This document shows positions 14,777 to 23,107 of a stretch of 32,747 bases of DNA, in pieces. Position 1 is the first letter of the stretch. Each line of letters opens with the position of its first letter. Source of the stretch: Candidatus Aenigmatarchaeota archaeon. Its GTDB lineage: Archaea > Aenigmatarchaeota > Aenigmatarchaeia > GW2011-AR5. The notes beneath the pieces are model-generated. The model saw only the letters and a program-made list of their open reading frames with translations. It made no database searches and was not told the DNA's origin. A program made the translations under genes and the position numbers. The stretch spans positions 1 to 32,747 of the forward strand of contig JACPAH010000019.1 of NCBI GenBank assembly GCA_016180925.1, given 5' to 3'.

Positions 14777-15424
14777 TTGGCTGAAATTGTCGGAGCATTA
14801 ATAGGAGATGGTCATCTTCAGGGAAAGCCTAACTGGAGGTTCGATTTTGCATCGAATGATTTAGAGGAAATAAGAAGGTTTGAGTATGTATTGTACGGAA
14901 TATTTCATATCAAGGGGAAGTCACGTAAGGTTACTACGAATAAATATGGAACAGTGTTATATGGAGTTAATAACAAGCCTATTTCTAGGGTATTATTTTT
15001 ATCCGGCGTTCCGTACGGAAACAAAGTGCTAAAAAAATTCTCGGTTCCAGAATGGATATTAAAAGACAAAAACTTTTTTAAGTCTTTTATTAAAAGACTT
15101 TTAGACTGTGAAGGTATAGTTGATACAAAAAATAAATATGTAGAACTTCAGATGTGGAAAGCCTCCAGATTACATAAGGATGGGATTGAATTCTTTGAGC
15201 AAATAAAGTATGGACTTAAGTACTATTTTGATATAGAAACTACAAACGTTTTTTCAGGAAATAGTTATAACATAAGAAAAGACGGTATAAAAACACAGCC
15301 ATTCAGAATAAAGATAAAAAGAAGAGATGCGGTTAAAAGATTTTATGAAAATATAGGATTTGGGAATAGGATTAAACAGAAAAAACTAGAGACCGTTATC
15401 AGCTCCATAGGTTTGGGAAGGTAA
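14777..15424 (+). CDS. LAGLIDADG homing endonuclease (215 aa or longer)
   Basis: Site-specific DNA endonuclease of the two-motif LAGLIDADG class. Motif 1 is LAEIVGALIGDGHL at the very N-terminus, with Asp in GDG. Motif 2 is FIKRLLDCEGIV (about 102-113). Both acidic residues are present. The only conventional start is TTG 14777, yet the frame stays open upstream to 14660 and encodes protein-like sequence just before (LFPVRWNKE), so the true N-terminus is unclear. The gene is clearly richer in A and T than its neighbours, which suggests transfer. Its last ten bases overlap the tRNA-Phe 5' end. Confidence 0.85.
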   Translation: MAEIVGALIGDGHLQGKPNWRFDFASNDLEEIRRFEYVLYGIFHIKGKSRKVTTNKYGTVLYGVNNKPISRVLFLSGVPYGNKVLKKFSVPEWILKDKNFFKSFIKRLLDCEGIVDTKNKYVELQMWKASRLHKDGIEFFEQIKYGLKYYFDIETTNVFSGNSYNIRKDGIKTQPFRIKIKRRDAVKRFYENIGFGNRIKQKKLETVISSIGLGR

Positions 15425-15453
15425 TCTTAATTGTTAATTAATTAAGACCTTAA
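15424..15453 (+). other. 30-nt tRNA-Phe intron between nucleotides 9 and 10
   Basis: A perfect bulge-helix-bulge: central helix AAGG/CCTT (AAGG lies in the acceptor strand), bulges TAA and AAG, and an 8-bp inner helix TCTTAATT/AATTAAGA. The intron is almost pure A and T apart from the stem ends. Confidence 0.88.
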
Positions 15454-15472
15454 GTTCAGCCTGGGAGAACAC

Positions 15473-15499
15473 ATGGGATGTATAAACATCCCAGTTCAA
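15473..15499 (+). other. 27-nt tRNA-Phe intron in the anticodon stem, between nucleotides 27 and 28
   Basis: A perfect bulge-helix-bulge: central helix GAAC/GTTC, bulges ACA and AAA, and inner hairpin TGGGATGT-ATAA-ACATCCCA. The intron interrupts the 5' strand of the anticodon stem, so the mature stem forms only after splicing. Confidence 0.88.
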
Positions 15500-15645
15500 A
15501 CGGCTGAAGACCGTGACGTCGAGGGTTCAAATCCCTCCCTTCCCATACGTCTCAAGCTTTTAAACATGCCTGAGATATTCAACACAGAAGAAGACATAGA
15601 GAACCAGGAAACTAGTTCTCGTCTAACTTCTAGGAAAGTGATAAC

Positions 15646-16227
15646 ATGCCAAAGGAAGATGAAGAAAAGGTAAACGAACTGCCTCCTGAGAAAGTAAAGA
15701 ACATACCAACCACTCTGGAGGAAAGCAAGGTCATTTCAACGAAGGACTGGCAGCAGGTATACGAGCCCGGATATTACGGAAAGCAGATAGGAGACAGGCT
15801 GGAACTGGCGCTTGTCGAGTCTGTGCTCCTGCTGAAAAGGGGCAGGATAGAGGTTTTCAAAGCCGGAAAGAGCATGGGCTTCAAGGAGCTGTACGACCAT
15901 GCCGCCTCGCTTGACAAGAGATTTGTCGAAAGATACCGCGTTTATGAGGACCTCAGGGAAAGAGGGCTGCTTGTAAGGACCGGTTTCAAGTTCGGCTGCG
16001 ACTTCCGCGTATACGAAAGGGGTGTGCAGCTGAAGAAAGGCCCGAAGAGCGCAAAGGAACACACCAAATGGATAGTGTTCTGCGTTCCCGAGGACTTCAC
16101 CATGTCTTTCCAGGAACTGTCGCGCTCGGTAAGGCTTGCTCATAATATAAGAGCAAGGATGTTGTGGGCCGTAGTGGACAACGAATCTGACTGTACATAT
16201 TATCAAATAGTACGTCACAAGCCCTGA
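15646..16227 (+). CDS. endA: tRNA-splicing endonuclease EndA, catalytic Lys replaced by Ala (193 aa)
   Basis: Cuts bulge-helix-bulge sites in precursor tRNAs. The catalytic domain shows Tyr123 in FKFGCDFRVYERG and His139 in AKEHTKWIVF. The region that normally reads AHSVRKK, where the first Lys is the third catalytic residue (Lys156 in M. jannaschii EndA, from memory), here reads AHNIRARM, so that place is Ala170 flanked by Arg169 and Arg171. Length suits a homotetrameric (alpha4) or alpha2beta2 subunit, plus a charged N-terminal 25 residues. ATG 15646 begins the conserved part. It sits just downstream of the doubly interrupted tRNA-Phe. Confidence 0.92.
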   Translation: MPKEDEEKVNELPPEKVKNIPTTLEESKVISTKDWQQVYEPGYYGKQIGDRLELALVESVLLLKRGRIEVFKAGKSMGFKELYDHAASLDKRFVERYRVYEDLRERGLLVRTGFKFGCDFRVYERGVQLKKGPKSAKEHTKWIVFCVPEDFTMSFQELSRSVRLAHNIRARMLWAVVDNESDCTYYQIVRHKP

Positions 16228-23003: not shown

Positions 23004-23107
23004 GGACGCGTAGCTCAGCTTGGATAGAGCACCTTTTATGAAAGGCTTCTTTCATAAGTGTCGGCCTTCTAAGCAGGGGGTCGCGGGTTCGAATCCCGTC
23101 GCGCCCA
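23004..23107 (+). tRNA. tRNA-Arg (anticodon TCT) with one intron
   Basis: The D arm is GCTCAGCTTGGATAGAGC, the anticodon loop CTTCTAA, and the T arm GCGGG-TTCGAAT-CCCGT. Acceptor strands GGACGCG and CGCGCCC pair except for A3 opposite C70. Removing the intron at 23035-23063 gives a 75-nt tRNA with anticodon stem CCTGC/GCAGG. A TATA-like GTATAAAG at 22988-22995 is closer than usual to the 5' end. Confidence 0.92.
23035..23063 (+). other. 29-nt tRNA-Arg intron in the anticodon stem, between nucleotides 29 and 30
   Basis: Bulge-helix-bulge: central helix GCAC/GTGT (one G-T pair), bulges CTT and CGG, and inner hairpin TTATGAAAG-GCTT-CTTTCATAA with nine perfect pairs. Confidence 0.87.

Follow-up and report, generated by a model that had tools for sequence, protein, structure and literature searches.

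A clade of archaeal tRNA-splicing endonucleases without the helix lysine of the catalytic triad, and a candidate substitute in a lengthened loop

The window analysed here is a stretch of 32,747 nucleotides from a Candidatus Aenigmatarchaeota archaeon (assembly GCA_016180925.1, contig JACPAH010000019.1), which carries a gene for the tRNA-splicing endonuclease EndA together with intron-containing tRNA genes. The features needed for the argument, all on the forward strand, are listed below, with the endonuclease residues numbered along its own chain:

15415..15545, forward: tRNA-Phe(GAA)-like gene, read by hand, interrupted by two introns, one near position 9 and one near 31 (weak Rfam match at 15475-15545)
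15646..16227, forward: endA, tRNA-splicing endonuclease, 193 aa, ATG start, one catalytic unit and an N-terminal domain
16012..16014, forward: codon TAC of Tyr123, the catalytic tyrosine, invariant (alignment to 1a79)
16027..16059, forward: residues 128-138 (Tyr-His loop), exceeding the loop of most lysine-containing EndAs by 6-7 residues (alignment)
16045..16047, forward: codon AAG of Lys134, five residues before the histidine (His-5), invariant in 114/114 lysine-less enzymes, putative replacement of the catalytic lysine
16060..16062, forward: codon CAC of His139, the catalytic histidine, invariant (alignment to 1a79)
16132..16134, forward: codon of Arg163, counterpart of the bulge-binding arginine (AFU R280, ARMAN-2 R275; position by alignment, roles from PMC12397907)
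16153..16155, forward: codon GCA of Ala170, at the position of the catalytic lysine (alignment to 1a79)
23004..23107, forward: tRNA-Arg(TCT)-like gene (Rfam tRNA, 41.6 bits), with a non-canonical intron near 29/30 placed by hand

The host genome (G000; 843,696 b in 41 contigs) has 18 tRNA genes over the Rfam cut-off, at least 14 of which contain inserts; most of these lie in the anticodon arm, others in the D-loop of L105 and L107 and in the variable region of L099 and L107. This bears out the view of an earlier note on this DNA that the organism is rich in introns; its count of eight introns, seven of them at non-canonical sites, holds in that introns are many and several are non-canonical, but the exact tally was not reproduced. 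The transcripts of the tRNA-Phe(GAA)-like and tRNA-Arg(TCT)-like genes are likely substrates of the endonuclease. A further tRNA-like gene at ~735-905 on the reverse strand, apparently with several introns, was missed by both ARAGORN and Rfam. Between an intronless tRNA-Asn gene and the tRNA-Phe-like gene sits a LAGLIDADG homing-endonuclease-like ORF (14777-15424, forward; PF14528, 9.1e-07), whose 3' end runs into the 5' end of the tRNA-Phe-like gene and which resembles an RtcB intein (NF038162, 1.3e-10). No counterpart was seen at this site in the relatives compared, and a similarity search over the stretches collected returned its own locus only. RtcB itself, the ligase that joins tRNA exons, is present in the host genome (L298, L299; contig C30, 24002-26746, reverse strand) as one 984-aa frame with its halves ~1.4 kb apart, as if interrupted by an intein.

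The 193-aa product belongs to the EndA family on its domains, with profile matches to Pfam tRNA_int_endo (PF01974; 6.1e-27, 94 bits) and tRNA_int_endo_N (PF02778; 9.7e-16, 57.5 bits) that both exceed the curated cut-offs, as does the match to TIGR00324 endA (8.3e-32, 110.5 bits). Its closest solved relative by sequence alignment is the EndA of Methanocaldococcus jannaschii (1a79, 4.1e-33), and the same structure is the top PDB match in a fold search with the predicted model (E 1.4e-17, TM 0.80/0.90), which identifies the EndA fold. The AlphaFold2 model has a pLDDT of 83 and a pTM of 0.80 overall, with a mean pLDDT of ~67 in the block containing most of the Tyr-His loop. By its predicted fold and its gene organisation, namely a single gene encoding a single unit with a full N-terminal domain, this EndA is alpha4-like. 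It is the sole detectable tRNA-splicing endonuclease of the organism, of the alpha type, and probably acts as a homotetramer. The alignment reveals no ASL, i.e., no insert after YYGK, and the chain of 193 aa has one unit, so the architecture is not epsilon2; nor is it (alpha-beta)2, since no gene for a structural subunit was found at E<=10 in the host genome (81% complete) or in near-complete relatives.

The catalytic triad of the M. jannaschii enzyme, Tyr115/His125/Lys156, aligns with Tyr123, His139 and Ala170, and the alignment is free of gaps around the third site. Thus, the catalytic tyrosine and histidine of the family are present and the helix lysine is not; both parts of this reading, which the earlier note had already made, are confirmed by the codons and by the alignment.

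EndA sequences were collected from relatives, from 74 genomes of the same phylum (G000 among them), from 28 of the phylum of G091 (Nanohalarchaeota-titled), from the phylum of G093 (Micrarchaeota-titled) and from across the archaeal domain; counts at the lysine position are restricted to enzymes with both tyrosine and histidine intact. In this sample, 114 enzymes are without lysine at the catalytic position (alanine in 103, threonine in 8 and serine in 3), and outside their clade lysine is found in 61 of the 61 archaeal enzymes checked. The carriers are Aenigmatarchaeota, the Nanohalarchaeota-titled phylum and one further group; beyond the two phyla, the clade takes in the genomes G150, G171, G190 and G297. 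In a tree from which the loop and column 170 had been left out, the lysine-less enzymes form a single clade (support 97/96); hence, one ancient change suffices to explain the loss. What the earlier note had treated as a peculiarity of one genome is instead the state of all 114 enzymes of a large clade. Codon 170 is GCA in 46, GCC in 21, GCT in 18, GCG in 17, ACN in 8 and TCN in 3, with all four alanine codons in use, and this synonymous turnover indicates that it is the amino acid that is conserved, not the DNA. A lysine-less EndA of the aenigmatarchaeal kind also occurs on a contig filed as a Planctomycetota MAG (L070; JADFIX010000162.1), a placement that is probably due to binning contamination.

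The second peculiarity of these enzymes lies in the Tyr-His loop, which has 15-16 residues in 114/114 lysine-less enzymes, as against 6-12 residues in 57 of the 61 lysine-containing ones. Within it, Lys134 stands at exactly His-5 in every one of the 114, while loop positions 131 and 137 vary widely; position 130 is lysine in 100 of the set, and position 141, just after the histidine, is lysine in 102, arginine in 6 and glutamine in 6. Lys141 was rejected as a substitute for the missing residue on account of these arginines and glutamines, and Lys130, Lys131 and Lys137 were rejected since all of them vary across the lysine-less enzymes. The fused enzymes of family f7, on reading their sequences, retain the His-5 lysine in the second unit. 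The insert is missing from eight tandem copies of beta-like kind that branch within the clade; in these, His139 is lost in 8/8, Arg163 is replaced by lysine in 8/8, and some lysine is retained in the shortened loop in 7/8. Three enzymes that keep the lysine, NEQ205, L264 and L269, fall on two other branches of the tree; they share the 15-residue spacing but have arginine at His-5. Short-loop lysine-containing DPANN enzymes also have lysine or arginine five residues before the histidine ('RG[VI][KR]PGE[GD]H'), so the statement that lysine-containing enzymes are devoid of a basic residue at His-5 is too strong; Lys134 may descend from an old RNA-binding residue. Homology of the loop to the ASL or CSL was likewise rejected, as both of these precede the catalytic tyrosine and this EndA has no insert there.

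The strict lysine at His-5, the longer loop, the arginine at that position in the three lysine-containing enzymes of equal loop length, and the loss of the insert alongside the histidine in the beta-like copies together argue for a role of Lys134 in supporting the transition state, and on balance we slightly favour the reading that it supplies the charge in place of the helix lysine. On this proposal, the helix lysine of the triad (now Ala170) was lost in the ancestor of the clade, whose enzymes have a Tyr-His loop longer by 6-7 residues. Tyr123 would still activate the 2'-OH and His139 would still protonate the leaving 5'-O, while Lys134 would reach the scissile phosphate from another side, stabilising the transition state by its positive charge and occupying the space freed at 170. 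That only alanine, serine and threonine are found at 170 fits a space which another side chain must enter. Against Lys134 stand the basic residue of the short-loop DPANN enzymes, the lysines in seven of the eight beta-like copies and the low pLDDT of the loop; moreover, the swap occurred only once, so the coupling of lysine loss with the loop is unreplicated. The earlier note had foreseen a lysine from elsewhere in the protein, as something that would overturn its own reading, though it did not name Lys134.

The charge could instead have been taken over by an arginine, whether Arg169, Arg160 or an Arg163 that serves two functions, with Lys134 merely holding the RNA. Both Arg169 and Arg160 are arginine in 114/114 lysine-less enzymes, where lysine-containing enzymes show R33/K23/N5 and R21/A19/G11/S8, respectively. 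However, in the lysine-containing sister enzymes of the first set Arg169 is already found in 19/21 and Arg160 in 13/21, giving them the look of retained rather than new residues, and we regard such a takeover as unlikely. Arg171 was rejected as a substitute because it varies across the clade (R38, T26, K24, N9, E5, S4); thus, the neighbouring arginine proposed in the earlier note fails if Arg171 was meant, and may hold for the invariant Arg169. Catalysis by tyrosine and histidine alone is rather unlikely: backbone amides (Thr140) and RNA-binding residues would then suffice, the enzyme would be slower or directed at less structured RNA, and Lys134 would be a specificity-loop lysine. Thr140 is indeed invariant (114/114, from 110/110 in the first set and 52/52 in the non-redundant set), and enzymes whose triad is complete cannot do without their ASL/CSL lysines for placing the substrate (PMC12397907), but the AFU and ARMAN-2 enzymes no longer cleave once the lysine is changed to alanine (PMC12397907), and a strict lysine, never arginine, at 134 would go unexplained. 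Arg169, Arg160 and the Thr140 amide may contribute.

The earlier note also considered that another subunit supplies the lysine or that this protein is one half of a heteromer. While (alpha-beta)2 enzymes exist elsewhere and some distant families have tandem or fused second copies, it is improbable that an unrecognised partner brings a catalytic lysine here. The hunt for a second EndA-like gene that the note had called for yielded none in the host genome, where a single PF01974 match is obtained even at E<=10, and none in nine carriers searched at E<=10 (including G070, G112 and G113) apart from stray matches with E 0.13-0.17 in G112 and G113. G070 is one contig, the EndA genes of G112 and G113 lie on contigs of ~1 Mb, and no second EndA was found in relatives in 2 to 5 contigs or in the one-contig G070. 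Further, the second copies that are known are themselves without the lysine: the eight tandem copies examined, from some distant families and not from this lineage, lack both histidine and lysine. The full N-terminal domain and alpha4-like fold also speak against a partner, and a second subunit is therefore unlikely. Within the lysine-less clade, two units are fused in one family (L133, L142, L143; 364-372 aa), and a tandem beta-like copy devoid of the histidine occurs in several (L079, L087-L092, L164); these architectures seem to have arisen anew inside the clade.

Several lines of evidence point to a working enzyme. Tyr123, His139 and Arg163 show no change across the 114 lysine-less enzymes, and the residues invariant in the 52 non-redundant ones include these three as well as Lys115, the counterpart by alignment of ARMAN-2 Lys228 (role from PMC12397907), Arg169, Arg160, Thr140 and Lys134. 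By an approximate hand count over the 74 genomes of the phylum, ~54 have the lysine-less type only, ~11 the long epsilon2 type only, ~8 both and one (G031) neither. The two types substitute for each other and hence most likely do the same work. Most lysine-less carriers, among them genomes in a single contig, have no other EndA and yet have tRNA introns, which argues that the enzyme is active; G113, whose sole EndA is lysine-less, has few but clear introns, in tRNA-Met(CAU)-like and tRNA-Arg(CCU)-like genes (anticodons read by hand). From these comparisons we consider the lysine-less EndA very probably active. That it is catalytically dead or otherwise employed, with an unrelated nuclease excising the introns, is very improbable: the absent lysine is the sole point in its favour, as against a tyrosine, a histidine and RNA-binding residues that do not vary in any of the 114 enzymes and an interchangeability of the two types such that genomes almost never have neither. 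The base-calling error at 16153-16155 for which the earlier note had allowed can be dismissed, and so can a fault of assembly, as GCA is two changes away from AAA, 113 relatives show GCN, ACN or TCN with synonymous turnover at this codon, and the 114 enzymes come from largely independent assemblies. In G031 (94% complete) no EndA was found, and its genus-mates have the fused form. Epsilon2 three-unit EndAs with an intact triad and a GVYKQ-like loop (L126-L129, L138-L141, L144-L153) occur in ~19 Aenigmatarchaeota genomes, in some of them together with the lysine-less type, which suggests that splicing endonucleases were exchanged horizontally or replaced.

Compared with the known systems, the enzyme shares with the alpha4 EndA of M. 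jannaschii (1a79) the single unit, the full N-terminal domain, the tyrosine, the histidine and the bulge arginine, and differs in having Ala170 where 1a79 has Lys156 and a Tyr-His loop of 15 rather than 9 residues. The catalytic subunit NEQ205 of the (alpha-beta)2 enzyme of Nanoarchaeum equitans (3iey_A) has an equally long Tyr-His loop (KKGKRSEREHSKW vs KKGPKSAKEHTKW), but it retains the helix lysine, has arginine at His-5, requires a beta subunit and belongs to another branch of the tree. ASL and CSL are inserted loops with a conserved lysine near the scissile phosphate (PMC12397907, PMC6379350). The epsilon2 EndA of ARMAN-2 (4fz2, 9w2k), whose ASL lysine is so placed, resembles the present enzyme in its broad-specificity setting; it differs in its three units per chain, its intact triad and the position of the ASL before the catalytic tyrosine. 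This type, with a chain of ~390 aa and a Tyr-Lys in the ASL, is present in other Aenigmatarchaeota. The crenarchaeal (alpha-beta)2 enzyme of Aeropyrum pernix (3p1z) likewise comes from intron-rich hosts and has a loop lysine near the active site, but its CSL is N-terminal to the tyrosine, its triad is intact and it is encoded by two genes. The mode proposed for Lys134 may thus resemble, by analogy, that of the ASL/CSL enzymes, but from another region of the chain and without an intact triad beside it. In human TSEN, Lys41 of TSEN54 covers the scissile phosphate, a further precedent for a lysine outside the triad (PMC10539383).

PMC6379350 describes the Tyr-His-Lys triad as a conserved feature of each of the four archaeal EndA types and of eukaryotic TSEN, and alanine in place of the lysine is reported to kill archaeal EndA enzymes (PMC12397907). 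Our literature search, with subscription papers and supplements outside its scope, found no publication on lysine-less EndAs; the enzyme family is a known one, and the lysine-less catalytic variant spanning a clade appears new. A clade of at least two phyla that splices its tRNAs without this lysine constitutes a natural experiment on the purpose of the residue, and it bears on the question raised in PMC6379350 of why the lysines of the specificity loops are needed even though the triad is present. Quite possibly, though we hold this tentatively, the transition-state lysine moved from helix to loop within a near-universal RNA-splicing enzyme in an ancient DPANN clade. If so, EndA would exist in two catalytic versions, one with a helix lysine and one with a loop lysine, and loop-bearing enzymes with both charges, such as that of N. 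equitans, would hint at a possible intermediate between them.
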